A stretch of 64,000 nucleotides of DNA from Clostridia bacterium (GTDB lineage Bacteria > Bacillota > Clostridia > Christensenellales > Aristaeellaceae). Shown here one piece after another: positions 1,626 through 25,508 of the stretch. Each line of letters opens with the position of its first letter. Position 1 is the stretch's first letter. The stretch lies in NCBI GenBank assembly GCA_017470145.1, contig JAFUFB010000006.1:1-64000 (forward strand). The letters are read 5' to 3'. Position numbers and translations under genes: made by a program. The notes below the pieces were generated by a model. It saw nothing but the letters and a program-made list of their open reading frames with translations, searched no databases and had not been told where the DNA came from.

Positions 1626-2516
1626 ATGGCATTGACAGCATATTGCAAAAAATGCAACCGGGAGGTTGCCCCCGGAGACATCTGCCCCCTTTGTGGCACG
1701 AAGCTGGCCAAAACTGCCACCCATGCCGCCTGGGTCACGGAGCGGCGGCCAGTGACGGACTGGATGTGCTGGAACAGGGTGATGCGGTGGCTGCTGCCCG
1801 CGGGACTGGCGGTGCTGATTTTGGTGCTGATCGCCGAAGGGGTCTCCGGCGGCGTTTCCGCGGTGGAAAAGCTTTTTCAGGGGGAATTTCCCTGGACGCT
1901 GCTGCTGATTTTTCTCATCCTGGTGGCCCTGGTTTTCCTGGCTCTGCTGCTGCAGGGGAAGGAGCTGATGGACTATGTCATCGACAGCCGGGGCGTCCAC
2001 GTAACCAGGTATCTCCCCCAGCCCACCGTCCTGAAGCTGCTGGCCCGGCTGAAGTCCCCCCGGTTGATGGATCAAATCGACCCGGAAGCCGAAAACCCGG
2101 TGCTGCGGCTGGAGGAGCAGGATCTGCCCTGGCGGGCGGTGGCCCGGGTGCAGCTGTGGCCAGAAAAATGCTATATTCTCTTCTATGCCCCCGTCTGGTG
2201 GCTTCGGATCCCCGTCCAGGCTACCCCCTTCTCCTGGAACGACGCACTGTACTACGTTCGGGATAAGCTGGGGAAAAAGAAGGCCGTGGACCTGCCAGAG
2301 CATCTTCGGGTGCCATCGGAGAAAAAAGCCCCTGCCCGCCGGGCGGATAAAGCCGCCCCTGCCGCTATGGTTGCACCGAAGAGCGCCTTCGCCACAGTGC
2401 CGGAAACGGCGCTGAACAGCGGAGCTTCCTGGCCGGAAGCGACGGAGATGGAAGAAAAAAACGACGAGCCCCCGCTGTCGGAAGCCCGCCGTGATGATAA
2501 AGAAAGAATGGATTAG
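1626..2516 (+). CDS. zinc-ribbon membrane protein of unknown function
   Basis: A 296-residue protein I cannot assign to a characterised family. It opens with a zinc ribbon (C7-x2-C10 and C20-x2-C23), then has two hydrophobic stretches at about residues 53-70 and 88-112. A soluble region follows that may be a small beta domain, with aromatic patches such as FYAPVWWL, and the tail is charged and alanine-rich. The layout (zinc ribbon, two membrane spans, cytosolic domain) is typical of uncharacterised Bacillota membrane proteins. It stands alone between divergent and convergent neighbours, and its stop overlaps the stop of rhaD by a few bases. Function unknown. Confidence 0.75.
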   Translation: MALTAYCKKCNREVAPGDICPLCGTKLAKTATHAAWVTERRPVTDWMCWNRVMRWLLPAGLAVLILVLIAEGVSGGVSAVEKLFQGEFPWTLLLIFLILVALVFLALLLQGKELMDYVIDSRGVHVTRYLPQPTVLKLLARLKSPRLMDQIDPEAENPVLRLEEQDLPWRAVARVQLWPEKCYILFYAPVWWLRIPVQATPFSWNDALYYVRDKLGKKKAVDLPEHLRVPSEKKAPARRADKAAPAAMVAPKSAFATVPETALNSGASWPEATEMEEKNDEPPLSEARRDDKERMD

Positions 2517-3337
2517 TCCAGGAATTCTTCCCGCAGGGTGACGCCAAATTCCTTGGCGATGGCCCGGAGGCCGTCGTCCGTGATGGTCTGCAGCTCCGGC
2601 AGGCCGGTGCTCTTCTGCAGCACCCAAATCTGGGCGCTCTTCTCGATGGTATGCATGAGGCCGAAGGTGATGTCAAAATCCGGCCCGGAGACGAAAAGCC
2701 CATGCTGGGCCCAGACCGCCGCCTCGAAGTCCTTCATCTTTTCGCAGGTGGCCAGGGCGATATCCGCGCCGCCAGGCACCATCCACGGCACCACGCCCAC
2801 GCCGCCAGGGAAAACCACCGGGCATTCCGTGGCACTCTTCCACAGAGCGCGGCTGAAATCCCGATCCGTCAGCGGCACCACATAGGTCATGGCGATGACG
2901 TTGGGGGTATGGGCGTGATAGATGACCCGGGTGGCGCCGCCGGTGGCGGCCACGCGAACGGAATGATTCATGAAATGGGTCGGGAATTCGCTGGTGGGCC
3001 GCCCGCCGTTTACCAGGCCCCAGCGGATCCGGTAGGAATCGCCCTTGTCGTTGATTTCCACCACGCAGAGGCTATCCGCCGGGTCCAGCACCACGTTGCG
3101 GAAGAATTTGCCGCTGCCGGTGGAAAGGAAGTATTCTCCGGCCAGGTTAGCGCCGGTGACGCCCATGGGGACCCAGGGGCGGGGCTCCGCGTCGAAGAAG
3201 GGCGCCATTTCCGCCACTTCCTCCTTCAGCAGGCGATAGGTCAGGTTGCCGCCGTTGCGCTCATGCCAGCCCTGGAGCCAGCCGTCGTTGCACATGCGGA
3301 TGTACCGCTTCATGATGTCCAAATCCAAAATGCTCAT
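2513..3337 (-). CDS. rhaD: L-rhamnulose-1-phosphate aldolase
   Basis: Class II aldolase that splits L-rhamnulose 1-phosphate into dihydroxyacetone phosphate and L-lactaldehyde, the last step of phosphorylative rhamnose catabolism in the cytosol. It is 274 residues, the normal RhaD length, and its numbering agrees with E. coli RhaD: E117 (catalytic) and zinc ligands H141, H143 (HAHTPN) and H212 (QHGLF). The N-terminal HERNGGNLTYRL is the RhaD phosphate-binding region. It is the third gene of a kinase-isomerase-aldolase operon, 18 bases after the isomerase, with GAAAGGAAG as ribosome binding site. Confidence 0.95.
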   Translation of the reverse strand: MSILDLDIMKRYIRMCNDGWLQGWHERNGGNLTYRLLKEEVAEMAPFFDAEPRPWVPMGVTGANLAGEYFLSTGSGKFFRNVVLDPADSLCVVEINDKGDSYRIRWGLVNGGRPTSEFPTHFMNHSVRVAATGGATRVIYHAHTPNVIAMTYVVPLTDRDFSRALWKSATECPVVFPGGVGVVPWMVPGGADIALATCEKMKDFEAAVWAQHGLFVSGPDFDITFGLMHTIEKSAQIWVLQKSTGLPELQTITDDGLRAIAKEFGVTLREEFLD

Positions 3338-3355
3338 ATGCTCTATCTTCCTTTC

Positions 3356-4780
3356 TTATCTCGTAATTACATCCACCGGCACATTGAAGATCTTCGCCAC
3401 CTTCAGGATGGTGTCGATATGCCGGCCCACAGCCGCGGCCATGTGGTGGGTGGGACCCGCCTCGCTCCAGCGGTTGCAAAATTCCCGGGCGCTGATGGAG
3501 AAGCGCATCCGCATGTTGGTATCGCCGAACATGAAGATGGGTCCTTCCTCATTGACCCCCTCCGCCACCACGAACTTGAAGTGCCCATCCTTGTCCTGGG
3601 TAATGCCCAGGAAGGTGATATCGCTGTTGGTAGGTGGATAGAACTGTGTCAGGTATCCGCCGCCGGTCTTGCCGTGGAACACGGGCACGATCTTCATGGA
3701 GGGCTTCCGGGCCTGGGAGATATCCGCGTCGCCGGAGCCAGAGTGGCCGATGATGCAGATGTCCTCATCAAAGTCGATGGAGTACATCTCGCTGAGCTGG
3801 CCCGTGCCGGCGATGGTTTTCAGGATGCCCATGGCCATGGCCACCTTGATGTCCCCCTCCACGGCGCAGGCGGTTCCCTGCTTGATCAGCATGGAGAAGG
3901 CGGGAATCAGCATGGAATCCAGCTTCCCGGCCACGCCCTGGGCGAAGCCGTCATAGTGGCTGGCCACGAAGCCCAGCTGCTCATCCTTCACCCACTGCTC
4001 GAAGGCAACCACGTACTTCGCCATGTCCCACACGGTTTCCACTGTGGCGTCGCCCTCAATCTCGAAGGTATCCAAAATATCCTCCGCCTTGGCCCGGATG
4101 GCCGCCTCGTCGGTGATGTTGTCCGCGATGGCCCACATCTTTTCCCAGTCGAACTGCTTGGTATACAGCCACATGCGGTGATACAGATTGGTCTCGTCGA
4201 TGTACAGATCCATCATGCCAGGATAGGGCCGACCAATCTGGGCGATGTTGGTATCCCGGAAACGGCGCCGCACCTGGGCCGCCCGGCACCAGTCCTCAAT
4301 CTCCGCCTGCAGAGCCGGATCTCCGCCTTCCTCCACGCCGGTGATCACCGCATGCCGCTTGCCGGCCCGCTCCAGGTCCGCCACCATCTCGCCCACCGCG
4401 CCGCAAGCGTATAGGGTGCCCAGCCAGGTTTCGTTATCCGTGTTGGCATAATCCGGAGCCTTCTTTTTCTGCACATTCACCAGCACCACCGGCACATCCA
4501 GATCCCGCACGGCGGGCAGCATGTTATAGCTGGTGGCATAGGTCAGCAGCTGCAGAATTACCAGATCCACATCCGCGGCCCGAAACTTATCCCCCGCGGC
4601 CATGGATTGCTCCTTGGTGGTGACGATGCCCCCGTCGATCAGCTCCACACTGTCCGGAATCCGCTTTTTGAACACCTCGTATTGGCTCTGGAATTCGGGA
4701 ACCAGGCCGGGAAACTGGGGCAGATAGGCGCCCAGAGCGATGGCAAAAACGCCGATCCGGGCTTTGGTATTGACTAACAT
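3356..4780 (-). CDS. L-arabinose/L-fucose isomerase family protein in the rhamnose operon
   Basis: A 474-residue cytosolic aldose-ketose isomerase of the AraA/FucI superfamily, not of the RhaA (TIM-barrel) family. Probable metal ligands are E308 (AVEGD), an acidic residue in IDFDEDI (337-339), H346 (IGHSG) and H445/H446 (GPTHHMA), which parallel E306, E333, H350 and H450 of E. coli AraA. It lies between rhamnulokinase and rhamnulose-1-phosphate aldolase, 15 bases after the kinase stop, with AAGGAGG before its ATG. Position suggests it makes L-rhamnulose; homology alone would suggest arabinose or fucose as substrate. No RhaA-type gene is in the window. Confidence 0.85.
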   Translation of the reverse strand: MLVNTKARIGVFAIALGAYLPQFPGLVPEFQSQYEVFKKRIPDSVELIDGGIVTTKEQSMAAGDKFRAADVDLVILQLLTYATSYNMLPAVRDLDVPVVLVNVQKKKAPDYANTDNETWLGTLYACGAVGEMVADLERAGKRHAVITGVEEGGDPALQAEIEDWCRAAQVRRRFRDTNIAQIGRPYPGMMDLYIDETNLYHRMWLYTKQFDWEKMWAIADNITDEAAIRAKAEDILDTFEIEGDATVETVWDMAKYVVAFEQWVKDEQLGFVASHYDGFAQGVAGKLDSMLIPAFSMLIKQGTACAVEGDIKVAMAMGILKTIAGTGQLSEMYSIDFDEDICIIGHSGSGDADISQARKPSMKIVPVFHGKTGGGYLTQFYPPTNSDITFLGITQDKDGHFKFVVAEGVNEEGPIFMFGDTNMRMRFSISAREFCNRWSEAGPTHHMAAAVGRHIDTILKVAKIFNVPVDVITR

Positions 4781-4795
4781 GGCAAACTCCTCCTT

Positions 4796-6064
4796 CTATT
4801 TCTTCATTTGGATATGCAAATTACCCAGGGCGGTAGCTTCGATGGGCAGGGCCACAACCCGTTTCCCCGTAGCCTCCTCCGTCAGCTGGTTCAGCCAGCT
4901 GTTTTTCGCCCCGCCGCCCACGATATACAGGGCGTCATAGCTCCGGCCCGTGTTGTGCTCCATCTCCGCGATGGCCTGGCGATAGCTCTGGGCCAGGCTG
5001 CGATAGGCGCAGCGGAAATACCCCGCCACGCATTTGGGCGGATGGGGCAGCCGGGCGTCGAAAGCAGCCTTCATGCTCTCCGGGGCCAGGAAGATGGGAT
5101 CGTTGGCGTCCACCAGGTGATCAAAATGCTTCTCCTGGGCCTCGGCGATGATCTGATCCCAAGGGGTATCGGGGCACAGCTCCGCCCGCAGCCGGTTCAC
5201 CAGCCACATGCCCATGATATTCTTCTGATACCGGTTGTATCCCACGCCCCCCTCGTTGCTCCAGTTGGCGGCCTGGCTGGCGGCGTCGGTCAGGGGCTTT
5301 TCCGTCTTCACCCCCAGGAGGCTCCAGGTACCGGAGGAGATGTAGGGCGCGTCCTCCGCCATGGGGATGCCCTCCACGGCGCTGCCCGTATCATGGGTGG
5401 CGCAGAGGATCACCTGCATGCCCTGATATTCCCCGATGACCTCCCCCGGCTGGCGCAGCTTGGGAAAAAGATGCTTCGGCAGCCCCAGGGCGCTGATCAG
5501 CTCCCCATCGTATTCCCCGGTTTTAGCGCTGACCAGCCCGCCAGTGGTAGCGTTGGTATATTCATGAGCCTTGACCCCGCACAGCTTGTACATCAGCCAG
5601 CAGGGCAGCATCAGGAAATCCGTCACCCCGTCCAGCCGACCCGCCGCCTTATCCGCCATCAGCTGATAAACGGTGTTAAAGGGCTGGAACTGAATGCCGG
5701 TGTGCTCATACAGCCGGGAGAAGGGCACGGCCTCATGCACCCGAGGGATGATCTCCTCCGTGCGGCTGTCCCGATAAGCATAGCCGGGCAGGACCTCCTT
5801 CTCCCCCTGCATCAGCACATAGTCCACCCCCCAGGTGTCCACCGAGAGGCTGACGATGTCCGGATACGCGGCCTGGGCCTTCTCAATCCCTTCCTTTACG
5901 TACCCCAGCAGGGTGAAAAGATCCCAGACCAAGTGCCCCTCCTGCTCCGTCACCCCATTCGGGAAGCGGAAAACCTCCTCCGTCCGCAATTGGCCGCCTT
6001 CCTCCCAGCCGACGATATGCCGCCCGGAGGACGCGCCAATGTCTATGGCAAGATATCGATCCAT
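4796..6064 (-). CDS. rhaB: rhamnulokinase
   Basis: FGGY-family kinase that phosphorylates L-rhamnulose with ATP. The ATG at 6064 is chosen because AAGGAGG lies 8 bases upstream and the protein then begins MDRYLAIDIGASSGRH, the phosphate-1 motif. Further motifs are SVDTWGVDY, the GTWSLLG phosphate-2 region and GGGAKNSWLNQ for adenosine. The open frame extends upstream to 6298, but that part precedes the promoter and looks non-coding. At 422 residues it is short: RhaB proteins usually carry several dozen more residues after the EATALGN segment, whereas this one ends 11 residues after EATA. First gene of the rhamnose operon. Confidence 0.92.
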   Translation of the reverse strand: MDRYLAIDIGASSGRHIVGWEEGGQLRTEEVFRFPNGVTEQEGHLVWDLFTLLGYVKEGIEKAQAAYPDIVSLSVDTWGVDYVLMQGEKEVLPGYAYRDSRTEEIIPRVHEAVPFSRLYEHTGIQFQPFNTVYQLMADKAAGRLDGVTDFLMLPCWLMYKLCGVKAHEYTNATTGGLVSAKTGEYDGELISALGLPKHLFPKLRQPGEVIGEYQGMQVILCATHDTGSAVEGIPMAEDAPYISSGTWSLLGVKTEKPLTDAASQAANWSNEGGVGYNRYQKNIMGMWLVNRLRAELCPDTPWDQIIAEAQEKHFDHLVDANDPIFLAPESMKAAFDARLPHPPKCVAGYFRCAYRSLAQSYRQAIAEMEHNTGRSYDALYIVGGGAKNSWLNQLTEEATGKRVVALPIEATALGNLHIQMKK

Positions 6065-6092
6065 GTCCACAGCCTCCTTCTCTTTGGTCTCC

Positions 6093-6121
6093 ATTTTACC
6101 GGAAAAGCCATCGCTTGGCAA
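6093..6121 (-). promoter_or_regulatory. promoter of the rhamnose operon
   Basis: On the minus strand TTGCCA (6121-6116), a 17-base spacer and TAAAAT (6098-6093), about 30 bases before the rhaB start. I saw no clear operator palindrome next to it. Confidence 0.5.
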
Positions 6122-6236: not shown

Positions 6237-6998
6237 TCAGAACCCATGGCTGCCTCCGCCGCCGGAGGATCCACCTCCGCCCCCGCCGGAGAAGCCACCC
6301 CCGTGGCCGCCGCCCCCGCCGGAATCTGAGCTGATATTGGTTTTCTTCTGCTTGGTCATGCGGGCGTGGATGTTGGCCGTCTTGGCGGCGTAGGCCGCCG
6401 CGGCCGCCGCGGTAATCGGCAGCGCCGCCCCCCGCTTGCCGGACTGGGGCCGGGTTTCATATCGGCGGCTGATGTACAGATACACCGCCAACAGGGCCAG
6501 CACCAGGGCTAGCAGGGCGTTGCTGGTCCATTTCATGGGCCGGGCGATTTTCTCCCCGTTCAGGAGCTGATAGATCTGGGCGTACACGCTGCTGGCGCAG
6601 GCGTAATACTCCCCCCGCCCCGCCAGACGGAACACATTGTCCGTAATGGTTTCCGCCTCGCCATTGGTAATGGTGCGATAAATGGCCCCATCGGAGAAAA
6701 TGGTCAGCTGGCGGGCCTGCATATTGATCACAAACAGGGTGCCGCTTTCCCCCTGGCCCAGCCGCTGATGAAAAAACCGCTCCGCCAGGGTTTCGTAATT
6801 GCCGGATTCATAGGTCGTCCAGAAAAGGGGCGTGCCATACTCGCACAGGGGCAGCATCTCGTCGTACAGGGCGGCCTCCTCCTCCAGGGTCATCAGCTCC
6901 GCGTCATCCTGAAGATAGGGCATGTTCTCCCCCAGGGCCCCCAGAGCCAGGCACAGCAGCCCCAGCGCCAACAGCAGCCCAACAATTCGTTTCCTCAT
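6237..6998 (-). CDS. TPM-domain (YgcG-like) membrane protein
   Basis: A 253-residue exported protein. An N-terminal signal or anchor segment (residues 1-23) precedes a TPM domain (about 26-150), the fold of YgcG and photosystem II Psb32. One membrane span follows at about 177-197, then an Ala-rich stretch and a Gly/Ser/His-rich tail with runs such as GGGGGHGGGFSGGGG. That tail is a hallmark of bacterial YgcG-type proteins. The function of the family in Bacillota is not settled. Its ATG overlaps the stop of the zinc-ribbon gene (ATGA), so the two are translationally coupled and probably act together at the membrane. Confidence 0.85.
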   Translation of the reverse strand: MRKRIVGLLLALGLLCLALGALGENMPYLQDDAELMTLEEEAALYDEMLPLCEYGTPLFWTTYESGNYETLAERFFHQRLGQGESGTLFVINMQARQLTIFSDGAIYRTITNGEAETITDNVFRLAGRGEYYACASSVYAQIYQLLNGEKIARPMKWTSNALLALVLALLAVYLYISRRYETRPQSGKRGAALPITAAAAAAYAAKTANIHARMTKQKKTNISSDSGGGGGHGGGFSGGGGGGSSGGGGSHGF

Positions 6999-8623
6999 GC
7001 TGCAGCCTCCTTCTCCCCAAAGAAGGGCGTCGGTCGAGAGGCATATTCATTATGCGCGCGATTGATCATCACCAGCTCAATGCCGGCGGAAATCAGCATG
7101 GCCGCCGCGCAACCATAATAGATCAGATCCTCCGCCTGGCCGGAAAGCACGCTCACCAGCCCCGCCAGACAAGCCAGCAGCGACAAGGCCCGGGGCCACA
7201 AGGGGCCTCGGCTCTCCTTTCCGGCCCGGCGGGCCAAATGGACCCCCATGGTCACCAGAACCCCCAGCAGCGCCAGCAGCACGATCATCCTCCGGCCCCC
7301 GGCGGTACCAAAGGCGGAGCCCAGGATGGACAGGGCCTGAATGCCAGCATAGCCCAGAACGGCGAGCAGAATCAGCCCCAGGCCCTTCAGCTTCTCCAGG
7401 GCGGATTCCCCCGTGCCCCGGGTGGAAATCCCTTCCTTCCCCTTCCGCAGCAGGGCCTGAGCCGGCCCCACGAAGGCCCGCTGCCCCAGGGCGAAGTCCG
7501 GCTCATAGGCCCGGGTGCGCCGATTGAACAGCAGCTTCTGGGCCCCGGAGAATTGATACTGAATGATCAGGGAAACCACCGCGCACAGGGCCATCAGCAG
7601 CTCTGGCTTCAGGGTCACAAACTGATGCAGCAGGAAAAACAGCCCGGCAGCCAGCGCCAGGGTCACCCCCGCCACCTTGCCATTGCTGACCGGCACATCA
7701 CAGACCACCTCGCCGCTGCGGCCATTGATGGCGGTATAAACCACCCGATCTCCCTGGCGATGGGCCAGGAGCCACACGGGCATCATCACCAGCTGCTCCT
7801 GATAGCGGGCGTCCGGCAGGCCGAAGTTTTCCTCGATATCACCCTTCATCTCCACGGAATCCATGCCTGTTTCTTCCTTCACCTGGTCCATAAACAGCCG
7901 GACCGCGCTGGCGGCCGCCTCCTGGTGATAGGTCTCCCCCGGCACGTCCGCCCCCTGGGCGTAAAACCCACTGAGATAGGCGGGATGGAAGGGCTCCGCC
8001 TGCTGCATGGTATGCTGCAAAAGGGCGGCGGTTTCATCCTCGAAGGCGGTGGAGGCGTCATACAGAATGCCCTTCTGGCTGATGACGGCATCCATGGTCA
8101 GATCGTAGGTTTCATCATAGCGATAATCCCCCCGGGTATAGCTCTTCTTGCCCTCCAGGCGCGCCACGCCCTGGGCCTCCACCCGATAAGACCAGAAGGG
8201 AATATACACCGGCCGGAAATGGGACACGGTTTCCGCCTTTTTCAGCGCCGAGGGCGCCAGCAGGTATCCCTTCAAATGATCCCGATAGGCCTGTTCGCAT
8301 TTTTCCCGGGTCACCTGGAAGGGCACGATATAGGCGGGCCGCCGGGTCCGCCCCAGCTTCCCCGTCAGCACCACATCGCTGCCGCAGAAGCTGCAAAAGC
8401 TGGTCACCTCCGTGTCCGTGGAATACACCGCGGCGCCGCATTGTGGGCAATGGAACTCATTCACCTCCAGCATGTCCCCCGGCTCCTCCCGGGGCAAATC
8501 CGCCAGGGAGGTCAATGTATCGCATCGGTCACATTTCATCTTCCCCGAGGCGATATCATACTGCAGCCCGCCGCCGCAGGCGGGGCATCCATATCGCCGG
8601 GTGGCGGCGCTGGATTCAGCCAT
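6995..8623 (-). CDS. double zinc-ribbon membrane protein
   Basis: A 542-residue protein with two N-terminal zinc ribbons (C13-C16/C31-C34 and C59-C62/C77-C80). A long soluble region follows (about residues 90-310) with motifs such as PAYIVPFQ and RPVYIPFWSYRV. The C-terminal half has about six hydrophobic segments from residue ~315. Proteins of this layout occur beside TPM-domain genes in many Bacillota, as here; their role is unknown. The start at 8623 follows ATGGAGGAAAAG. It is the first gene of a two-gene operon with the TPM protein, with a promoter ~150 bases upstream. Confidence 0.82.
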   Translation of the reverse strand: MAESSAATRRYGCPACGGGLQYDIASGKMKCDRCDTLTSLADLPREEPGDMLEVNEFHCPQCGAAVYSTDTEVTSFCSFCGSDVVLTGKLGRTRRPAYIVPFQVTREKCEQAYRDHLKGYLLAPSALKKAETVSHFRPVYIPFWSYRVEAQGVARLEGKKSYTRGDYRYDETYDLTMDAVISQKGILYDASTAFEDETAALLQHTMQQAEPFHPAYLSGFYAQGADVPGETYHQEAAASAVRLFMDQVKEETGMDSVEMKGDIEENFGLPDARYQEQLVMMPVWLLAHRQGDRVVYTAINGRSGEVVCDVPVSNGKVAGVTLALAAGLFFLLHQFVTLKPELLMALCAVVSLIIQYQFSGAQKLLFNRRTRAYEPDFALGQRAFVGPAQALLRKGKEGISTRGTGESALEKLKGLGLILLAVLGYAGIQALSILGSAFGTAGGRRMIVLLALLGVLVTMGVHLARRAGKESRGPLWPRALSLLACLAGLVSVLSGQAEDLIYYGCAAAMLISAGIELVMINRAHNEYASRPTPFFGEKEAAA

Positions 8624-8864: not shown

Positions 8865-9033
8865 CAAGGCAATCTTTGAAGCAGCAAAGATTCCGGGAAA
8901 CGAGACCGAAAGCCCCTCCCGCGGCGCGAGCTCGCCTGAGGGCACCCTCTTCCTCCTCGTCAGCGGCAAAATGCTTTTCTGCTGTTTGGCAGGAGGCCCC
9001 GTTTCCCGCTCCATAGAAAGGAAATGAGACAAA

Positions 9034-10470
9034 ATGATCATCGTAGCAAAGGATGGCAGCGGAGCCTTTTCCACCATCCAGGCAGCCATCGACGCGCTGC
9101 CTGCGGACCCGCGTGAGGGAGATCGGAAGGTTTTCGTCCGGAAGGGAATTTATCACGAGCGAGTCATCGTCAACAAGGAGGGCGCCTGCCTGGTCGGGGA
9201 AGACGCGGCGGAAACCATTCTCACCTGGTCCTCCTTCGCCCTGGAGCTTCATCCGGACGGCACAGAGCGGACCACCTTCCGCTCCTGGACCCTGATGGTC
9301 AACGCGGCGGATGTGACCGTGGAAAACCTCACCATCCGCAACGACGCCGGCGATGGCCGCGAGGTGGGCCAGGCAGTGGCAGTCTACGCGGCGGGAGACC
9401 GGGGCCTCTGGCAGGGCTGCCGGATGATTGCCCATCAGGACACCCTGTACTGCGGCCCTCTGCGGATTCCGGACGTGGTGGCGGATTTGGGGGATCGGCA
9501 GGGCACCGCGGAGCAGGTTCCCCTGGTGCAGGATGGGCACCCCTCCCACAGCCGGCAATATTTTGAGCGCTGCTACATCGAGGGGGACGTGGATTTCATC
9601 TTCGGCTCCTACCGCTGCTGGTTCGAGGGCTGCGACCTGTTTATGGGGAAGCGGGGGGGATGGTACACCGCCGCCAACACCCATGCCTCCCAGCCCTATG
9701 GCTTCGTGTTTCATCGCTGCCGCCTCTCCGGCAATTGCCCGGAGGGCCAGGCCTACTTGGGCCGCCCCTGGCGAGCGGGGTCGGCCACCCTGTTCCTGCG
9801 CTGCGATATGGACGCCCATGTGGCGCCGGAAGGCTTCACGGACTGGGACGAAACCCGGGGCGTCACGGACCGCTACGGCGAATGGGAAACCACCGGCGTG
9901 CGCGCCGATCTGTCCCCGCGGAATGCGCATGAAAAGCGTCTAACCCCGGAGGAAGCAGGGGCCATCACCCTTCCCTCGGTTCTCGGGGGCGAGGATGGCT
10001 GGCAGCCCGCCGCCCCCGGCCCGGACTATGCCCTGATGGCGGAGCAGCTGCGGGCCTTCGCCGCGGAGGAGGGCTGGTTTGCCTCCCTGCTGAGCAACGC
10101 CAGCGCACTGATCTATGATCAGTTACCGAATCTGAACTGGGCCGGGTTTTACCTGGTTCGGGGGGAGGATCTGGTGCTGGGGCCCTTCCAGGGCAAGCCC
10201 GCCTGCATCCGCATTCCCCAGGGAAAGGGCGTCTGCGGCGCCGCCTGGGCGGAGGGCAGAACCCTGGTGGTGCCGGATGTCCATCAATTTCCCGGCCACA
10301 TTGCCTGCGACAGCGCCAGCCGGGCGGAGATCGTCCTTCCCCTGCGGCAGGGGGATCGCATCGTCGGCGTGCTGGATATCGACAGCCCTGTGCAGGATCG
10401 CTTCTCCCCGGAGGACGCCGCCGGTCTGGAGCTGCTGGTCGATGCCCTTCAGCAGTCCCTGCAATGGTAA
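9034..10470 (+). CDS. pectin methylesterase (CE8) fused to free-methionine-(R)-sulfoxide reductase
   Basis: One uninterrupted 478-residue frame holds two enzymes. Residues 1-~310 form a CE8 pectinesterase beta-helix that removes methyl groups from homogalacturonan. It carries GQAVAVY (Q113), HQDTLY (D136), GDVDFIFG (nucleophile D187) and LGRPW (R244). Residues ~331-478 form a GAF-fold free-Met-(R)-sulfoxide reductase, with NWAGFYL, GPFQGKPACIRI and HIACDSASRAEIVLP. C391, C401 and C425 keep the 10- and 24-residue spacing of E. coli fRMsr C84, C94 and C118. There is no signal peptide, so both act in the cytosol; the esterase would work on imported oligogalacturonides. GGAAATGAG precedes the ATG. 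Each domain assignment is firm; why they are joined is unknown. Confidence 0.93.
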   Translation: MIIVAKDGSGAFSTIQAAIDALPADPREGDRKVFVRKGIYHERVIVNKEGACLVGEDAAETILTWSSFALELHPDGTERTTFRSWTLMVNAADVTVENLTIRNDAGDGREVGQAVAVYAAGDRGLWQGCRMIAHQDTLYCGPLRIPDVVADLGDRQGTAEQVPLVQDGHPSHSRQYFERCYIEGDVDFIFGSYRCWFEGCDLFMGKRGGWYTAANTHASQPYGFVFHRCRLSGNCPEGQAYLGRPWRAGSATLFLRCDMDAHVAPEGFTDWDETRGVTDRYGEWETTGVRADLSPRNAHEKRLTPEEAGAITLPSVLGGEDGWQPAAPGPDYALMAEQLRAFAAEEGWFASLLSNASALIYDQLPNLNWAGFYLVRGEDLVLGPFQGKPACIRIPQGKGVCGAAWAEGRTLVVPDVHQFPGHIACDSASRAEIVLPLRQGDRIVGVLDIDSPVQDRFSPEDAAGLELLVDALQQSLQW

Positions 10471-10559: not shown

Positions 10560-11525
10560 ATGATTTCCATCATTCTGCCTTCCTACAACGAGGAAGAAAA
10601 CATCGACCGGGCCGTAGAGCGCATTGGTCATACGCTCCAGGCCGAGGAAATGGATTACGAGCTGGTTTTCGTCAATGATGGTTCCCAGGACGCCACCTGG
10701 CAAAGGATTCAGCATCAGGCCCAGGTCAATCCCCATGTGGTGGGCGTCAACTTCTCCCGCAACTTTGGCAAGGAGGCCGCCATCATGGCCGGCCTGGCCC
10801 AGGCGAAGGGGGACTGCTGCGCCGTCATGGATTGCGACCTGCAGCATCCGCCGGAGACCTTGATCCAGATGCTGCATCTTTGGCAGGAGGGATATGAGGT
10901 TATCGAGGGCGTCAAGCGCAGCCGGGGAAACGAATCCGTGCTGCATCGCTTCGCGGCGGGCACCTTCTATCGGCTCATGAGCAACGCTACGAAGATCGAT
11001 ATGTCCCGGGCCTCCGATTTCAAGCTCATGGACCGGAAGGCGGTGAATGCCATCCTGTCCCTGCCCGAGAAGAACGCCTTCTTCCGGGCCCTTTCCTCCT
11101 GGGTCGGGTTCAAAACCACCTCTGTGGAATTCGACGTGCAGGAGCGGGAGGCCGGCACCTCGAAATGGAGCTCCCGGACCCTGACCAGCTACGCCGTGCG
11201 GAACATTACCTCCTTTTCCTCCGCGCCCCTGCAGCTGATTACCATCTGCGGCGGCATCGTGCTGGCGCTGGCCCTGATCATGGGGATTCAAACCCTGGTG
11301 CGCTATTTTTCCGGCACTGCGGTGGAGGGCTTTACCACGGTGATCCTGCTGATTTTGCTCATCGGCAGCGTGCTGATGCTGAGCCTGGGGCTGATTGGAT
11401 ACTACCTGGCGCAAATCTACAACGAATTAAAGGATCGGCCTCGCTATCTGATTTCGGAAATCATCCGCGGCGAAGCGGCGGAGCCAAGGAAAGGGACGAA
11501 TCACAATGGAAGCCACCCAGCCTAA
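10560..11525 (+). CDS. polyprenyl-phosphate glycosyltransferase, GtrB/DPM1-like (GT2)
   Basis: A 321-residue family-2 glycosyltransferase of the GtrB/dolichol-phosphate-mannose-synthase type, which transfers a hexose from a nucleotide sugar to undecaprenyl phosphate on the cytoplasmic face. It has the GT-A motifs SYNEEENI, VNDGSQD and the metal-binding MDCDLQHPPE. Two C-terminal membrane spans lie at about residues 223-245 and 258-283. AGGAGGA lies 11 bases before the ATG. The next gene, a polytopic GT-C-like protein, overlaps its end by 20 bases, so the pair probably works as donor synthase and acceptor transferase. Sugar identity is unknown. Confidence 0.88.
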   Translation: MISIILPSYNEEENIDRAVERIGHTLQAEEMDYELVFVNDGSQDATWQRIQHQAQVNPHVVGVNFSRNFGKEAAIMAGLAQAKGDCCAVMDCDLQHPPETLIQMLHLWQEGYEVIEGVKRSRGNESVLHRFAAGTFYRLMSNATKIDMSRASDFKLMDRKAVNAILSLPEKNAFFRALSSWVGFKTTSVEFDVQEREAGTSKWSSRTLTSYAVRNITSFSSAPLQLITICGGIVLALALIMGIQTLVRYFSGTAVEGFTTVILLILLIGSVLMLSLGLIGYYLAQIYNELKDRPRYLISEIIRGEAAEPRKGTNHNGSHPA

Positions 11526-12828
11526 AAACGAAGAAAAATTCTGGCGTCATGTCGCTCAGTCCCTGCTGCTGATTCTCCTTTCCGCCCTGGTGGGCACGGG
11601 GCTGCTGATCCTGTCCGAATTCCTGCCCGCAGAGCCCATGGATCAGCACCTGGACAGCTCCGCGGATATCTTCCAGGCCACCGGGAAATTTCCCAATCTG
11701 CACACCTGGTGTTCCAGCAGGCTGGATAACTATTCCGACGCCATCATGCTGCTGATGGCCGGCAACGTTTCCTCGGAACACCCCGTCGAATATGCCATGA
11801 TGTCCTATCACGGCGTCATGGGGGAGTTTGACCCCGTCCAGATTTTTGTGAAGCACTATATCGAGGGGGAAGCATATGAAGGTTTCGAGCCCTATTCCCG
11901 CTATTGGCACGGATACAGCGTCATCTACCGATTGCTGCTCCAGGTTCTTGACTATCATCGCATTCGCCAGCTGAACATGGCGCTCCAGGTCGGGCTGGTG
12001 CTGCTGCTTTGCCTCCTGATGTGGCGGAGCGGCTCCCGGCCCCGGGGTATGATTCTGCCCCTCCTGATCTCCTACGCCATGCTGGCGCCGGCGGTGATGG
12101 GCCTGAACCTGGAATATTCCCTGGGGTTCTATATTTCCCTGCTATCCGTGTTAACGCTACTGCTCCTCCATCGAAAGGGACGCATGCAAAGCCGGGAATA
12201 TCTGGTCTTCCTGTTTTCCGGCATCTGCACCGCCTACTGGGATGTACTGACCTATCCCATGGCCGCCTTGGGGCTGCCCCTGGTGGTGGCCTTCTATCTG
12301 GCCCCGGACCGGAAGCTTCGGGACGCCCTGCTGCGCCTGCTCCGGCTGGGATTTTTCTGGGGCATGGGCTATGGACTCCTGTGGGTGATGAAATGGGTCA
12401 TCGGCACTGCCCTCACCGGCTTTAACGTGTTCGAGGAAGGGCTGTCCACCTTCCTGATGCGGACCGGGGATGAGGCCTATGGCGAGGTCGTCACCCTGGG
12501 CGCTACCCTCTGGGGGAACATCCGCTTTTTCTTCAATACCCCCTTCACCCTGCTTTTCCTGGGCTATCTGCTTTTCCTGATCCTCCGTCTCCTGCGGAAG
12601 ACGCCTCGGGAAGGCGCCGCCCGCCAGGCCTGCCTCCGGCAGCTGGTGCCTTTTCTGCTCATCGCCTGCATTCCCTTTGCCTGGTGCGTCCTGACCAAGA
12701 ACCACGCCTATATCCATTACTGGCTGGCCAGCAAGGCCTTCATCGTCTCCACCATGGCGCTGATGTGCGGGCTGTATCATGTAAATCAATCCATCACAAA
12801 GCCCTTCCCGGAGCAGGGAGGGCTTTAA
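11506..12828 (+). CDS. polytopic membrane protein, GT-C glycosyltransferase-like
   Basis: A 440-residue protein with about ten membrane spans and a large first extracytoplasmic loop rich in acidic residues (LDSSADIFQATGKFPN). This layout is that of GT-C enzymes that use polyprenyl-phosphate sugars on the outer face. It belongs to no family I can name with certainty. It is translationally coupled to the upstream GtrB-like gene, so it is the likely acceptor-side transferase. The repeat hairpin at 12844-12868 follows its stop and may end the transcript. Confidence 0.72.
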   Translation: MEATQPKNEEKFWRHVAQSLLLILLSALVGTGLLILSEFLPAEPMDQHLDSSADIFQATGKFPNLHTWCSSRLDNYSDAIMLLMAGNVSSEHPVEYAMMSYHGVMGEFDPVQIFVKHYIEGEAYEGFEPYSRYWHGYSVIYRLLLQVLDYHRIRQLNMALQVGLVLLLCLLMWRSGSRPRGMILPLLISYAMLAPAVMGLNLEYSLGFYISLLSVLTLLLLHRKGRMQSREYLVFLFSGICTAYWDVLTYPMAALGLPLVVAFYLAPDRKLRDALLRLLRLGFFWGMGYGLLWVMKWVIGTALTGFNVFEEGLSTFLMRTGDEAYGEVVTLGATLWGNIRFFFNTPFTLLFLGYLLFLILRLLRKTPREGAARQACLRQLVPFLLIACIPFAWCVLTKNHAYIHYWLASKAFIVSTMALMCGLYHVNQSITKPFPEQGGL

Positions 12829-12834
12829 TCTGTG

Positions 12835-12931
12835 CTGATGCAAACACCCCCGCGGAGCGCGGGGGTGAGAAACGATGATAAATCACCAAAGTAAGCAAGA
12901 GGCTTTTCGCGCTGATGGGAACAAATCAGCG
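12835..12931 (+). repeat. copy 1 of a ~97-bp intergenic repeat with GC-rich hairpin
   Basis: The copy starts CTGATGCAAA and has a GC-rich hairpin (arms CACCCCCGC and GCGGGGGTG, 12845-12867). A ~60-base conserved tail containing AAATCACCAAAGTAAGC, GCTTTTCGCGCTGAT and ACAAATCAGCG completes it. It aligns from end to end with copies at 41680-41776 and 38452-38548 (both minus orientation). It lies between convergent genes, so the hairpin may also terminate transcription. Confidence 0.7.
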
Positions 12932-12937
12932 ATGGCT

Positions 12938-14464
12938 TTAGAAATTAACCACAATGACCTCCCCCAGCTTCTGAATGGATCCATCGTCCGGGTAATGGGG
13001 CATGGCCTGCACCTCCGGGAGGTTTTCATACAGCGCTTCATTGGCATAGACGGGGCTGAAGCCGCACCAACGCTCCATAAACTTTCGCCAGCCGTAGGAA
13101 TTCAAGTAGTCCCCCAGGGTGCCATCATAGGGCGTCAGGAGGATAAAGTCCAGCTCCTGCATATGATACAGGGTTTGGTCCGAAATTTGCTCCTGATTCA
13201 TGAAAGCCACCGGCAGATCATCTCGATATCCCTCCGTGGATTTGATCTGCGTGGCCAAGGTCGTCATCCAGGAGATGGCCTGCTGCTGCTGAAAATTCGT
13301 CTTCAAATAACATTGATTATCATACCGGGCATACATCACGCAGGCCAGGCCCAGCAGCGTCGCGGCGAATCCCCCCACTGACCTTTTGACCCTGGGCCAA
13401 CGGAACTCCTGCCGCTCCGCCAGCAGGAGGAACAGCGCCGCCTGCATCACCTGGCCATAGGTCATCAGCCCATGCACCGTGCCCGCCATGACATAAATCA
13501 AATTGCAAGCCAAGGGCATCAGCCCCAGGAGCACCGCCAGCAGCAATGCGACGGAGAGGCGCTGCTTTCCTTTCTGGAGCAGTAGTCGAAGGGCAAACAC
13601 GCCATCCAGGAGCACCATTCCCCGGCTGAGATAAAACAGATGCATCGGGAACACATCCGCTATTCCATTGCGCTGGGGCCAGAAGAACTCCCGATAGGCC
13701 TGGGCCGCCCGGAGCAAATAGGTGCCCAGGCTGGTGGACCCCATTTGATCAATGCCCATGTAGCTGTTCAGCTCCAGATAAAACTTGGCCAGGAAAAAGC
13801 GGGTCGCCGCAAAATAGCAGACCATCACCCCCAGCATACAGGCCACCTGCATCGCCGCCAGGCGGAAAAAGGATTTGAGATTCCCTTCCCCGTCCAACAG
13901 AATCGAAAGATCATACAGCAGCGGCAGGCTGAGCAGCAGGGGCAAAAAAGCCTGATACACCCCCACGGAGCAGCAACCCAGGGCGATAGCCAGCAGCTTG
14001 CCCCATCCCTTTCCCTTGCAGAGGAGCCAGCCGCACAGTGTCATCATCAGCAGGGCCAGCGCATAATAGGGCAGGGTGTACATATATCCGAACAGGCCCG
14101 CAATGGCCGGAAAGGCCACCATGATCCCCGCCAGCCCTGCACAGCAGCCCAGGTTTTTTAGCCCCAGCAAATCCACCACCAGGCAGGCCGCCAGGGCCAT
14201 GCACAGGAGGGAAAACAGTCCGTGGGTCAGGGGCAGGCTGAAATGCCCCGGTCCAAAGAGGATCGTTTCCAGCCAGTCCATCACATGCAGCATCCATCTG
14301 CCAGAGCTGATGGTGGTCCCCAGCTCGAAGAGGGACACAATATCGTCATGGGAGGAGAACTTGTTCAGCAGCCCCATCCCATGGGCCACCAGGCCGAAGA
14401 GCAAGGCGCTGAGCAGAGTCACCGCCAGCTGCGGCCGCTTCCGAGCCCACTGCGCTACCCTCAC
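12938..14464 (-). CDS. GtrII-family glucosyltransferase-like membrane protein (paralogue A)
   Basis: A 508-residue polytopic protein of the Glucos_trans_II (GtrII) type, which in phage serotype-conversion systems adds glucose from a polyprenyl-phosphate donor to surface polysaccharide. It carries the acidic SSHDDIVSLF motif in the first outer loop after GLVAHGMGLLNKF. About ten membrane spans follow, then a C-terminal outer domain with YARYDNQCYLKT and PEVQAMPHYP. It starts at GTG 14464, overlapping the stop of paralogue B (GTGA). Last gene of a nine-gene minus-strand polysaccharide operon. Acceptor and sugar are unknown. Confidence 0.82.
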   Translation of the reverse strand: MRVAQWARKRPQLAVTLLSALLFGLVAHGMGLLNKFSSHDDIVSLFELGTTISSGRWMLHVMDWLETILFGPGHFSLPLTHGLFSLLCMALAACLVVDLLGLKNLGCCAGLAGIMVAFPAIAGLFGYMYTLPYYALALLMMTLCGWLLCKGKGWGKLLAIALGCCSVGVYQAFLPLLLSLPLLYDLSILLDGEGNLKSFFRLAAMQVACMLGVMVCYFAATRFFLAKFYLELNSYMGIDQMGSTSLGTYLLRAAQAYREFFWPQRNGIADVFPMHLFYLSRGMVLLDGVFALRLLLQKGKQRLSVALLLAVLLGLMPLACNLIYVMAGTVHGLMTYGQVMQAALFLLLAERQEFRWPRVKRSVGGFAATLLGLACVMYARYDNQCYLKTNFQQQQAISWMTTLATQIKSTEGYRDDLPVAFMNQEQISDQTLYHMQELDFILLTPYDGTLGDYLNSYGWRKFMERWCGFSPVYANEALYENLPEVQAMPHYPDDGSIQKLGEVIVVNF

Positions 14465-16035
14465 GTTCCCTCGCTCCCTTCGCCAAATTTCACCACCACT
14501 ACGTCATGAATCACCTGAATGGAATCCGCCGCGGGGTAACTGGGCATGGCCTGCACCTCCGGCCAGGTCTTCACTTCTGCCTCGTCCACCGTCTCCGGGT
14601 CAAATCCGCACCAGCGCTGCAGGAATCTTTCCCAGGCCCAGTTATTGACGTATTCCTCCAGGGTTTCTTCGTACCCCGTCAGGCTCAGGCCCTTCATCTC
14701 CTCCATATTGTACAGGCTCGCGTCCTGCATTTCATAGCGGTTCACCCAGGCCACGGGCAGCTCATCCCGGAAGCCAGGGGCCGACTTGATCCGCGTCACC
14801 AGGGCCGTGTCCCAGGAGATCGCCTCCTGCTGATAAAAGGCGGTCTTGAAATAGCATTCATTATCATACCTGGCATACATGACGCAGAGCAGCCCAAGCG
14901 CCACCGTCACCGCGCTGCCAGCCAGCTGCCTCCACCGGCCCAGCCGGAGCCAGACCTGATCCACCAGGAGGATGCACAGCACAAAATGCATCACCTGGCC
15001 ATAGACCATGAGGCCGTGAATCTCCGCGGAAAGCACGAAAATGAAATTACAGCCCAAGGGATAGAGCCCCAGCAGCAGCGCCAGCAGCAAAGCCTTTCCC
15101 CGGCTTTGCTTCCAAGCCCGAATCACCGCCGCCGCGCCCAGGGCCAGGTTGACTCCCATGGCAAAGTAATACAGGTAATAGGCATGCTGCGGATACATAT
15201 CCCAGGGAGCGTTCCGGGTCGGGCGGAAGAATTCCCCATAGGCCCGGCCTGCCCGCTCCAGATACACCCTCAGGGGCAGGGAATCCGCCTGGTTCAGGCC
15301 CATATAAGGGCTCATCTCCAGGTCATATTTATTCAGGAAGTAATGGCTGCCCGCCAGGTAGATCGCCATGACGCCTGCCACGCAGACGGCCTGCAACAGC
15401 AATCGCTTTCCCAGGGCGAGGGCATCCTCTCCCTTCTCCCCAATGGCCTGAATATCCGCCAGCAGGATCACCGTCAGCAGCAGCGGCAGAAAGGCCTGAT
15501 AAACCCCCACCGCACATCCGCTCAGCAGGCATCCCGCCACCTTAGCGCCCCAGGAATGCTTCCCGCCGATCAGCAGCGCTCCCGCCACCATCATCAGCAG
15601 CGCCAGCATGTAATAGGGCGCCGCGAACATGAAGCCAAACAGGGCAGCCAGCATCGGGAAGGCCGCCATGACGCAGCCCAGCAGCGCCCCCAGCCCCCGG
15701 GAGCGCAACCGCAGCCCCTGGGCCAAGAGCCCGGCGGAGAGGCCGATGCATAGCAGGGAAAACAGCCCATTCATCAGGGGAAGGCTGAAGTGTCCATCGC
15801 CAAAGACCAGAATTTCCAGTCTTCCCAGCACATGCAGCATCCACCGCCCGGAGGTGATGGTTTCCCCCTGCAGAAAGAGCGAAAAAATATCGTCATGCCA
15901 GGAATACTTATTTAGCAGCGCCATGCCATGGGCCACCAGGCCAAAGAGCAGCGCGGCGAAAAACGCAGCCCAGGCCGCGGGCTGAACCATGGCTCCCCAC
16001 TTCCCCCGGGCGGCGCGATTCGTTTCTCGATCCAT
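14461..16035 (-). CDS. GtrII-family glucosyltransferase-like membrane protein (paralogue B)
   Basis: A 524-residue close relative of its downstream neighbour and of the gene at 30663-32237. Shared marks are SWHDDIFSLF, YPLGCNFIFVLS, MYARYDNECYFKT, QQEAISW and WPEVQAMPSYPAADSIQ. It is a GT-C type transferase predicted to use a polyprenyl-phosphate sugar at the outer face. It begins one base after the stop of the preceding gene, so the operon is very tight. The tandem arrangement suggests duplication followed by divergence in acceptor or linkage. Confidence 0.82.
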   Translation of the reverse strand: MDRETNRAARGKWGAMVQPAAWAAFFAALLFGLVAHGMALLNKYSWHDDIFSLFLQGETITSGRWMLHVLGRLEILVFGDGHFSLPLMNGLFSLLCIGLSAGLLAQGLRLRSRGLGALLGCVMAAFPMLAALFGFMFAAPYYMLALLMMVAGALLIGGKHSWGAKVAGCLLSGCAVGVYQAFLPLLLTVILLADIQAIGEKGEDALALGKRLLLQAVCVAGVMAIYLAGSHYFLNKYDLEMSPYMGLNQADSLPLRVYLERAGRAYGEFFRPTRNAPWDMYPQHAYYLYYFAMGVNLALGAAAVIRAWKQSRGKALLLALLLGLYPLGCNFIFVLSAEIHGLMVYGQVMHFVLCILLVDQVWLRLGRWRQLAGSAVTVALGLLCVMYARYDNECYFKTAFYQQEAISWDTALVTRIKSAPGFRDELPVAWVNRYEMQDASLYNMEEMKGLSLTGYEETLEEYVNNWAWERFLQRWCGFDPETVDEAEVKTWPEVQAMPSYPAADSIQVIHDVVVVKFGEGSEGT

Positions 16036-16036
16036 G

Positions 16037-17233
16037 TCAGCCCTCCTTCCCGATCCATCCCACCGGCTCCTTCTGGATCGATCGCCAGGTCAGATACAGC
16101 GTTCCCGCATAGCAGGCCACATTCATCAGCGTCAGCAGTTCCCAGGACAAGGCCTCCTTCTTCATCAGGTAGGATCCATAGGTCTGCAAATCAATGGCCA
16201 CCACCCCTATCAGCACCGGGATCATCCGGGGCGAAAGGGCGCAGGCCGCCGTCAGGAAGATCAGCACGGGATAGGAATAACGCTCATGCATGGCCGGCAG
16301 GAAGAACAGGCAGGTATACATCATCAGGGTCGCCGCCTGCAGCAGCGAATCCTTTCCCAGCTTCCCCTTGCGAATCAGCCACAGCATCATCCCTCCCAGC
16401 GCCACCACCGTCACGCCCAGACAGAATCCCTGCAGCTCTGCGTAGTGATCCACGCCGTCCTCTGCCAGGGTAACCACCATCAGGTTCCAGAAGGAGGGAT
16501 AGTTCAGGCTGATCTGCTGATAGGTGCCGCTCTGTTCCGCATAGATGCGGAAGATATCCAGCGGGCTCCTTCCCTGGATCAACCCGCCCACGCTGGCCAG
16601 CAGCATCGCCGCCGGAATCCATAGAAACTGCCAGGCGGAGAATTTTCGGCTCCACACATAGTAAAAAAGGAGGAAGGGCAGGAAGAAAACCGCCTGCAGC
16701 TTGAAGGCAAAGGCCAGCCCATAGCAGAAAAGCGCCGCGCCGTGCCTTTCCCGCAGCAGCAGCAAAAAGGTCGCCATCAGGAAAAAGGTATAAATGGAAT
16801 CGCACTGGCCCCAGGCTGCGGAATTCAGCACCGTGGTGGGCAGCAGCACCACCACCGCGTAAACCGCCGCCGCCTTCGTTTGGCTGCCTGTGATCTCGTG
16901 AACCATTCGCCCAGCCACTATTCCCAAGGCATAATCGAAGGCCATGGAAAGCATCTTATAGGCATAGACCTTGTGAACCGGCAGGTAGGTCAAAAGCGCC
17001 ACCAGCGTCTGATAGCTGATCTGGTAATTCCCTACCTGCTGCCCCAGGGCCCGCCATGCGCCCCGCTCCTGAATCACATCGTACCATGGAATCAGGAAGA
17101 TATCCACATCCGGGCTGATGAACCCCCGGAAACTGAACCGGGCATACATGGATAAAAGGGTGGCACAGGCTATGAAGATTTTCAGCCGATGCCGGATCAT
17201 CAGATCCCAGAATCTTTCCTCTGTCTTTCTCAT
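16037..17233 (-). CDS. GT-C glycosyltransferase-like membrane protein (paralogue pair 1)
   Basis: A 398-residue polytopic protein with about nine membrane spans, resembling mannosyltransferase-type GT-C proteins (GT87-like). Marks are RHRLKIFIACATLLSMYARF, an acidic first loop SPDVDIFLIPWY, NSAAWGQCDSIYTFFL, AFKLQAVFFLPFLLFYYVWS and LPAMHERYSYP. The gene at 18805-20010 is a clear paralogue with the same motifs in the same order. It is presumed to add a sugar from a lipid-linked donor to the surface polymer; specificity unknown. Confidence 0.75.
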   Translation of the reverse strand: MRKTEERFWDLMIRHRLKIFIACATLLSMYARFSFRGFISPDVDIFLIPWYDVIQERGAWRALGQQVGNYQISYQTLVALLTYLPVHKVYAYKMLSMAFDYALGIVAGRMVHEITGSQTKAAAVYAVVVLLPTTVLNSAAWGQCDSIYTFFLMATFLLLLRERHGAALFCYGLAFAFKLQAVFFLPFLLFYYVWSRKFSAWQFLWIPAAMLLASVGGLIQGRSPLDIFRIYAEQSGTYQQISLNYPSFWNLMVVTLAEDGVDHYAELQGFCLGVTVVALGGMMLWLIRKGKLGKDSLLQAATLMMYTCLFFLPAMHERYSYPVLIFLTAACALSPRMIPVLIGVVAIDLQTYGSYLMKKEALSWELLTLMNVACYAGTLYLTWRSIQKEPVGWIGKEG

Positions 17234-17278
17234 CGCATAGCTCTCTTTCTGCCGTGGGTTCTCTCTATTTTCGTATTT

Positions 17279-23386: not shown

Positions 23387-23437
23387 GACTCCCTTTCTCC
23401 TATGGGATGATTCCTTCCCTTCGGCGCCATTTCAAAT

Positions 23438-23872
23438 TCATTTCTTTTTCCGAAACACCAGCAGCTTGCTGAACACATAATTTGCAATGATGATGATAAC
23501 CTGGGCCACCAGCTTCACAATTCGATCATTGATCCCCAGGGCGGTCACCCCCAGCCACATGATTCCCATCTCCATCAGCAGCGTGGTGACCCGGGAAAGC
23601 ACAAACTTCCCCGCCTCCTTCAGCCTGTTCTGCTCCTGGCTGAAGAAGACATACCGCCGATTGGTGAAATAAGCAAAGGTCACCGCGCAAATCCAGGAAA
23701 TCACGTTGGCCGCCTGCAGCTGCAGGGAGTTTTCCGGGTTCAGAAAGGTCGCCGTGCAAAGCCAGTATACCGCCAGGCTGACCACCGTGGTCAGCCCGCC
23801 CACGATCAGATAATTGATCTGTTCCCGATATGCGCTGTAAATCGCCTGGCACTTCTTCCATAAAGCTTTCAA
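23438..23872 (-). CDS. GtrA-family membrane protein (first copy)
   Basis: A 144-residue protein with four membrane spans, of the GtrA family, whose members are thought to flip polyprenyl-phosphate sugars to the outer face. Marks are INYLIVGGLTTVVSLAVYWL and the conserved FAYFTNRRYVF. Starts at TTG 23872. It would serve the GT-C enzymes encoded downstream in the same operon. A second GtrA lies at 29100-29555. Confidence 0.85.
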   Translation of the reverse strand: MKALWKKCQAIYSAYREQINYLIVGGLTTVVSLAVYWLCTATFLNPENSLQLQAANVISWICAVTFAYFTNRRYVFFSQEQNRLKEAGKFVLSRVTTLLMEMGIMWLGVTALGINDRIVKLVAQVIIIIANYVFSKLLVFRKKK

Positions 23873-23884
23873 TCCAACAACCCC

Positions 23885-25324: not shown

Positions 25325-25409
25325 CCGTCCGACGCCTCCTTCTTCTTCTACAAATTCATGATACTCCTCTTTCCTGCTTTCCGCAAGCATCGCCGGAGGA
25401 AGAGTTTGG

Positions 25410-25438
25410 TTGAAAGGCACCGGGAAACAAGGTATAAT
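25410..25438 (+). promoter_or_regulatory. strong sigma-A promoter for the amino-sugar/GT2 operon
   Basis: TTGAAA (25410-25415), a 17-base spacer and a perfect TATAAT (25433-25438), about 105 bases before the TTG start at 25543. Confidence 0.7.
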
Positions 25439-25479
25439 ACCCCTGTAGCCCGGGCAGGGCGTTTTTCCGGAGAAAGAAA

Positions 25480-25508
25480 TTGCGGAATGCCTGAAAAAGG
25501 GGTATCAT
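25480..25508 (+). promoter_or_regulatory. second, weaker promoter candidate for the same operon
   Basis: TTGCGG (25480-25485), a 17-base spacer and TATCAT (25503-25508), 35 bases before the start at 25543. It would make a tandem promoter with the one at 25410-25438. Confidence 0.4.

Follow-up and report, generated by a model that had tools for sequence, protein, structure and literature searches.

A fusion of predicted pectin methylesterase and free-methionine-(R)-sulfoxide reductase domains in a Clostridia bacterium

The window analysed here, the first 64,000 nucleotides of contig JAFUFB010000006.1 from the Clostridia bacterium assembly GCA_017470145.1 (genome G000), contains a gene that appears to join, in one frame, a pectin methylesterase of carbohydrate esterase family 8 (CE8) to a free-methionine-(R)-sulfoxide reductase (fRMsr). 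The locus raises two questions: whether the joined frame is genuine, and whether the pairing ties pectin demethylation to redox repair, as an initial annotation of the sequence had proposed. Both enzyme families, as well as intracellular pectin methylesterases of the rumen, are already known, and it is their combination that was not found in print. The gene is a lineage-restricted fusion of two known enzymes, most likely with no special pathway behind it.

The two halves of the fused gene

The frame at 9034-10470 on the plus strand has no internal stop, and its stop codon ends at 10470 (Table 1). Its N-terminal half is matched by the Pfam Pectinesterase profile (PF01095, E 1.3e-46, 159.1 bits against a cut-off of 27), and its C-terminal half by the GAF profile (E 7.5e-12, 46.4 bits against a cut-off of 22.4), with the best stretch at residues 366-474. 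In the PDB sequence search, the fRMsr half matches the Staphylococcus aureus fRMsr 3ksf (E 4.8e-47) as well as Escherichia coli YebR (1vhm), Neisseria meningitidis fRMsr (3mmh) and 8dgd. C391, C401 and C425 keep the spacing of 10 and 24 that the initial annotation had recognized as that of the E. coli enzyme, and the alignments with 1vhm and 3ksf are free of gaps from the first to the third cysteine. We take these three to correspond in numbering and role to the cysteines of the E. coli enzyme. W369, Y373, E432, D448 and D450 are likewise kept and presumably line the fRMsr pocket. The proteins of 3ksf and 1vhm share with the fRMsr half the GAF fold, the cysteine spacing and about 50% identity, but they are standalone proteins of about 160 residues, unlike the fusion.

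Table 1. Features of the fused gene and its surroundings (positions in the window)
Feature	Position	Strand	Remarks
Sugar catabolic block	2516-6094	-	Class II aldolase, isomerase with fucose-isomerase C-terminal domain, FGGY kinase
Left neighbour, zinc-ribbon-like membrane protein, divergent	6998..8623	-	Weak PF22747 match, below cut-off
AGGA, Shine-Dalgarno-like	9019..9022	+	11 bases upstream of the ATG; putative role, from sequence
Fused gene, CE8 pectin methylesterase and fRMsr (predicted)	9034..10470	+	478 aa, stop included; ATG start
CE8 half, aa 1-325	9034..10008	+	Pfam Pectinesterase, PDB 8tne match, residues, fold
Codons of CE8 catalytic residues D136, D187, R244	9439-9441; 9592-9594; 9763-9765	+	
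Connector AAPGP, aa 326-330	10009..10023	+	Located against the C-termini of standalone CE8 and the N-termini of standalone fRMsr proteins
fRMsr half, aa 331-478	10024..10467	+	GAF; PDB 3ksf, 8dgd, 1vhm, 3mmh; fold match
Codons of fRMsr cysteines C391, C401, C425	10204-10206; 10234-10236; 10306-10308	+	
Right neighbour, family 2 glycosyltransferase	10560..11522	+	PF00535

The best pectin methylesterase match of the CE8 half, by sequence and by fold, is the rumen enzyme Pme8A of Butyrivibrio proteoclasticus (8tne, E 8e-45 in the PDB sequence search), whose active-site residues are named in the available portion of its description (PMC10530356). In the alignment with 8tne all of the CE8 active-site residues are present (Q113, Q135, D136, D187, R244 and W246), the catalytic Asp, Asp and Arg standing exactly where they had been placed earlier, and the CE8 half is complete. 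Pme8A is described there as small and intracellular. It shares the CE8 fold and the catalytic Asp, Asp and Arg, but it has no fRMsr domain.

A structure model (md1299667e016) was built from alignment A3; alignments A1 and A2 misplaced fRMsr rows into wrong columns and were left out of the modelling. The mean pLDDT of the model is 76.5. Most blocks of the fRMsr half are near or above 90, while the CE8 half is of moderate confidence with stretches below 50, because its alignment could draw on just three rows of standalone CE8 proteins. Foldseek places the fRMsr half on 3ksf with a TM-score of 0.94 on the target, an rmsd of 1.3 and 50% identity. The CE8 half is placed on 8tne with TM-scores of 0.73-0.76 on the target and about 31% identity in the fold alignment, and it also matches 1gq8 and 1qjv, in keeping with a right-handed β-helix. 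By its profile, catalytic residues and modelled β-helix fold, the N-terminal half is assigned to CE8; by its predicted GAF fold and three-cysteine spacing, the C-terminal half is assigned to fRMsr.

GAF folds act as sensors in many proteins, and the connector between the halves is short. The C-terminal half might then be a sensor of methionine sulfoxide or redox state that switches the esterase, rather than an enzyme. However, none of the three cysteines has been lost, nor any of the other conserved residues of the pocket, and the close fold fit to the S. aureus fRMsr is what would be expected of a working reductase, so that a sensor is quite improbable. Judged from its sequence, the most likely role of this half is the reduction of free methionine-(R)-sulfoxide, which would take place at the cysteine site.

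The protein was also described at the outset as lacking a signal peptide, and this agrees with the positions of the CE8 core motif, which begins at residue 4 of the fusion. The motif pattern is matched in 104 of the 120 closest relatives listed, at residues 4-7 in 88 of them; for the 16 without a match, the inspection was confined to the first 30 residues. In the 11 listed relatives with more than 15 residues before the motif, no 12-residue stretch rises above a mean hydropathy of 0.22. The fusion protein, which shows no sign of a signal peptide, is predicted to be cytosolic. This location is nothing special, because pectin methylesterases of rumen Butyrivibrio have already been termed small intracellular enzymes (PMC10530356). 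By analogy, the most likely substrates of the CE8 half are methyl-esterified pectin oligomers inside the cell; it would take the methyl groups off imported oligomers, as is proposed there for the intracellular rumen enzymes.

A second genome, selection and the junction

The whole fusion protein was searched in 45 same-genus genomes (37 and 8 more) and was found in two of them, G000 itself and G061 (RGIG4401, a metagenome-assembled genome from roe-deer omasum, record JAFUDS010000024.1). The G061 copy has 477 residues, lies in the same frame at the same place and is 99% identical in amino acids to the G000 fusion. Both of its neighbours are 99% identical to those in G000 with equal spacing, and the two loci share 96.9% DNA identity over 14,178 bases. 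Given the local DNA identity of about 97%, G061, which is labelled as the same genus, may belong to the same or a sister species, and it counts as a second genome, not as a distant lineage. A third distinct CE8-fRMsr protein, P0001 (477 residues, 3 member sequences), is one residue away from the G061 protein.

These copies bear directly on the reality of the frame. The G000 assembly is a draft (84% complete), and two of its other contigs are identical to each other over at least 6 kb, which might point to an assembly or sequencing artefact. However, G061 has the same frame between the same neighbours and P0001 is a third distinct protein, and an artefact is hardly credible. A frameshift or misassembly at the junction, which had been named at the outset as one way to refute the fusion, is rejected on the same evidence, and the uninterrupted frame of 478 residues, from CE8 into fRMsr, stands.

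Between G000 and G061, dN/dS is 0.029 over codons 1-310 of the CE8 half, where 21 changes are synonymous and 2 nonsynonymous, and 0.064 over codons 331-477 of the fRMsr half, where 10 are synonymous and 2 nonsynonymous. The binomial p-values against neutrality are 2e-11 and 4e-5, respectively. Codons 311-335 show no change, over too few sites to carry weight. These ratios indicate purifying selection on both halves. The catalytic residues kept uphold the earlier view that both halves look catalytically intact. Since the fusion occurs in just two of the 45 genomes, it could be young and about to lose one half. This outcome is very improbable, however, as dN/dS is well below 1 in both halves at a dS near 0.1 and there is neither a stop nor a lost catalytic residue. 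Decay of one half is rejected by the dN/dS of both.

The point of joining can be located by comparison with standalone proteins. Among the 91 standalone CE8 proteins listed (at most 400 residues), 74 carry a W.P or Y.P motif close to the C-terminus, and 65 of these 74 stop less than 10 residues past it. The 22 standalone fRMsr proteins P0240-P0261 start at, or within a few residues of, a (D/N)Y or DW motif, except that more residues precede it in P0256. The junction reads GGEDGWQP at the CE8 end, AAPGP, and DYALMAEQL at the fRMsr start. By this comparison it is near-scarless, two whole proteins standing head to tail with about 5 residues between them.

An in-frame ATG at codon 335 (10036) adjoins the natural start position of standalone fRMsr. 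Translation from this second start would yield a free fRMsr beside the fusion, and the joining would then change little. On inspection of the sequence, no Shine-Dalgarno-like stretch was seen upstream of this ATG; therefore a single fused product from the gene is likely, and a second product is improbable. Promoter and terminator scans gave no promoter-like site and two terminator-like sites, against 2.3 expected by chance. The locus is thus a clear example from nature in which two unrelated enzymes, each complete and each constrained, are joined by almost no linker in genomes about 3% apart in DNA.

Partners of fRMsr and CE8

Whether the pairing is meaningful depends on how the two enzymes occur elsewhere. 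In the 45 same-genus genomes, fRMsr is found in 37, CE8 in 34 and both in 28. They are separate genes in 26 genomes and side by side in none of these, a count limited by draft contigs: 24 genomes have them on different contigs, and the distance between them is 33 kb in G021 and about 1.4 Mb in G064.

When the fRMsr half was searched against proteins restricted by length to the size of a fusion, 1871 matches were obtained, the best 120 of which were examined. Their partner parts fall into 46 single-linkage clusters, which are not a count of events, and some singletons may be gene-calling errors. The largest cluster has 33 members, with no partner Pfam in the four inspected; it is followed by MsrA (20), NUDIX (6) and GNAT acetyltransferases (clusters of 6 and 5), and the remainder are nine pairs and 32 singletons, P0001 included. 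The partner is N-terminal in 81 of the 120 and C-terminal in 39, so that fRMsr appears as a small enzyme accepting partners at either end. P0001 is the sole CE8 partner among them, and the best 120 of 7480 whole-protein matches hold no CE8-fRMsr fusion beyond P0001, G000 and G061. The search for further such fusions that had been suggested at the outset yielded P0001 and G061 and nothing else among the matches listed; CE8-fRMsr fusions more distant than these lists may exist.

Two recurrent arrangements among these matches are instructive by comparison. In the MsrA-fRMsr fusions (e.g., P0122, P0123, P0127 and P0181), fRMsr is also joined to a second whole enzyme, but the partner is C-terminal and is itself a methionine-sulfoxide reductase; MsrA and fRMsr plausibly form a functional pair, as reductases of the two free methionine-sulfoxide stereoisomers. 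In the CE8-GDSL esterase fusions (e.g., P0022, P0023 and P0066), the same CE8 family has a C-terminal extension, but the added domain (PF13472) is another esterase family and not fRMsr. This CE8 family is often extended at the C-terminus, since 28 of the best 120 of 7480 relatives carry PF13472.

By frame and codon use, the genus has three types of fRMsr fusion: with CE8 (G000, G061), with a GH2-like protein (G026) and with a GNAT acetyltransferase (G010). In the last two, fRMsr is also C-terminal on an unrelated protein, and by partner and place they are separate events. The G026 fusion is a 1080-residue frame (L032:2503-5742, plus strand) with coding codon use throughout, which directly precedes an SMC-like gene; its GH2-like part matches Glyco_hydro_2_C at 28 bits against a cut-off of 21. 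The G010 fusion lies at L149:2715-3626 on the minus strand, and P0201 (26 member sequences) is its neighbour in the tree. Long upstream frames in G016 and G019 were considered as further fRMsr fusions, but their codon use is non-coding and they were left uncounted.

Counted by fusion type, fRMsr (3/37) does not differ from full-length MsrA (1/36, G009; p 0.61, with the six longest MsrA frames inspected), and a greater fusion-proneness of fRMsr in the genus was not shown. In 147 genomes of the class, the fRMsr half has 37 matches in 36 genomes, the window's included. Counted by length without a coding check, 31 of the 37 lie in frames of at most 232 residues, and six lie in frames of at least 335, a group that includes the window's own frame and two matches that are weak and partial. 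On these sequence counts, fRMsr fusions look rare per genome and diverse in partner.

Fusions of MsrA and MsrB have been described in archaea (PMC6211008), and no fRMsr fusion is named in the sections of that paper that are accessible. The open-licence literature yielded neither a description of a CE8-fRMsr fusion, in line with the initial annotation, nor one of fRMsr taking partners at either end. Promiscuous domains are a source of weak links in fusion inference (PMC4921024). Measured against the Rosetta-stone criteria, the pair was not found fused again in independent lineages among the matches listed, the separate genes are neighbours in 0/26 genus genomes, and one partner, fRMsr, joins at least 46 partner clusters. 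Where one of the partners is found on many different proteins, a fusion by itself should not be taken as a sign of shared function, and a link between pectin demethylation and redox repair is not supported.

The proposal that motivated the search can be weighed on this basis. Pectin use would bring methanol release and oxidative stress, and a protein with both activities would have been selected. Both halves are constrained; the fused gene is the sole copy found of either enzyme, no second one having been detected in G000 (84% complete) or in G061 (68% complete); and there are three GH28 pectin hydrolase matches in G000 and five in G061. On the other side, the genes are apart in all 26 genomes with both separate, and CE8 is one of 46 partner clusters in the best 120 of 1871. 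We know of no substrate or cofactor shared by CE8 and fRMsr. This comparison leaves the proposed coupling without support, and it is unlikely; if the halves did influence each other, it would be the first link of pectin breakdown to methionine redox repair. A broader version, in which fRMsr of gut Clostridia is a recurrent C-terminal redox module on carbohydrate-active enzymes that ties polymer breakdown to oxidant exposure, would draw on the CE8, GH2-like (G026) and sialidase-type (P0157, P0182) partners of C-terminal fRMsr. It would define a new class of redox-coupled carbohydrate enzymes, but we regard it as highly doubtful.

Surroundings and origin of the fusion

The neighbourhood bears on how the two genes came together. 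To the left of the fusion, on the minus strand, are the zinc-ribbon-like protein, a TPM-domain protein and the sugar block, which we read as L-rhamnose genes. The zinc-ribbon-like gene adjoins the TPM gene without the fusion in G026, G007, G032, G033, G027 and G067. The left block is kept without the fusion in G026, which has close relatives of all three sugar-block genes (81-94% identity). To the right, the glycosyltransferase is closely matched at other loci of the genus that lack the fusion and, with the gene that follows it, is kept without the fusion in G007 and G018. In all five relatives that closely match both flanks (G007, G032, G033, G027 and G067), the flanks are on different contigs. 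In G026 and G007, CE8 is one gene away from clpB; no CE8 is present in the clpB stretch of either G000 or G061. The fusion thus stands at a synteny breakpoint, the two sides of which are marked by its left and right neighbours.

This position, with the near-scarless junction and the many partners of fRMsr, speaks for the explanation that we consider probable, though by no means secure: the two active sites are likely independent, and the two genes were likely joined by an accident that has been tolerated. A rearrangement would have brought the genes into head-to-tail order, and the intervening stop would then have been lost; this is the order of events that we infer. The fusion would have persisted because fRMsr tolerates extensions and the joining does little harm, the fused gene supplying both activities. 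Several observations weigh against accidental joining. Both halves are kept under constraint, so that the fusion may bring an unseen advantage; fRMsr is not shown to be more fusion-prone than MsrA in the genus; and the short frames that prevail in the class sample make fusions look rare. The intermediate in which CE8 and fRMsr are adjacent but separate is absent from the loci searched, 198 records in all (the window and 197 loci, many overlapping and most with short flanks); both domains occur in six of these records, all of them copies of the G000 or G061 fusion. Finally, CE8 is not by clpB in G018 and G019, so that an ancestral position of CE8 on the clpB side is unproved.

A possible foreign origin of the fRMsr half was examined in two trees. 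In a tree of 169 rows, the fused fRMsr falls outside a clade (support 100/99) of 32 of the 37 genus sequences, and three unfused fRMsr of the genus (G062, G022 and G029) also fall outside it. In a tree of 58 rows, from which these three and G023 and G036 were left out and 30 native rows kept, the native clade has support of 100/99 and a placement of the fused rows inside it, as a native origin would have it, is not rejected (AU p 0.119). The nearest standalone fRMsr is P0240, at 71% identity.

Of the other methionine-sulfoxide reductases, MsrB has no match in G000 at 84% completeness, and the only MsrA matches there are one truncated stretch on two contigs. These contigs, C2 (L200) and C9 (L201), share at least 6,001 bases at 100%, either by assembly overlap or as a large repeat, and on both msrA breaks off some 30 codons in. 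Further along the window, 10560-30000 holds a run of glycosyltransferase and membrane-protein genes whose order is reshuffled among G007, G018, G019, G027, G032 and G033. Several homologues of the glycosyltransferase at 10560-11522 in related genomes (e.g., G032:C7, G027:C18 and G067:C345) have one TGA inside the match.
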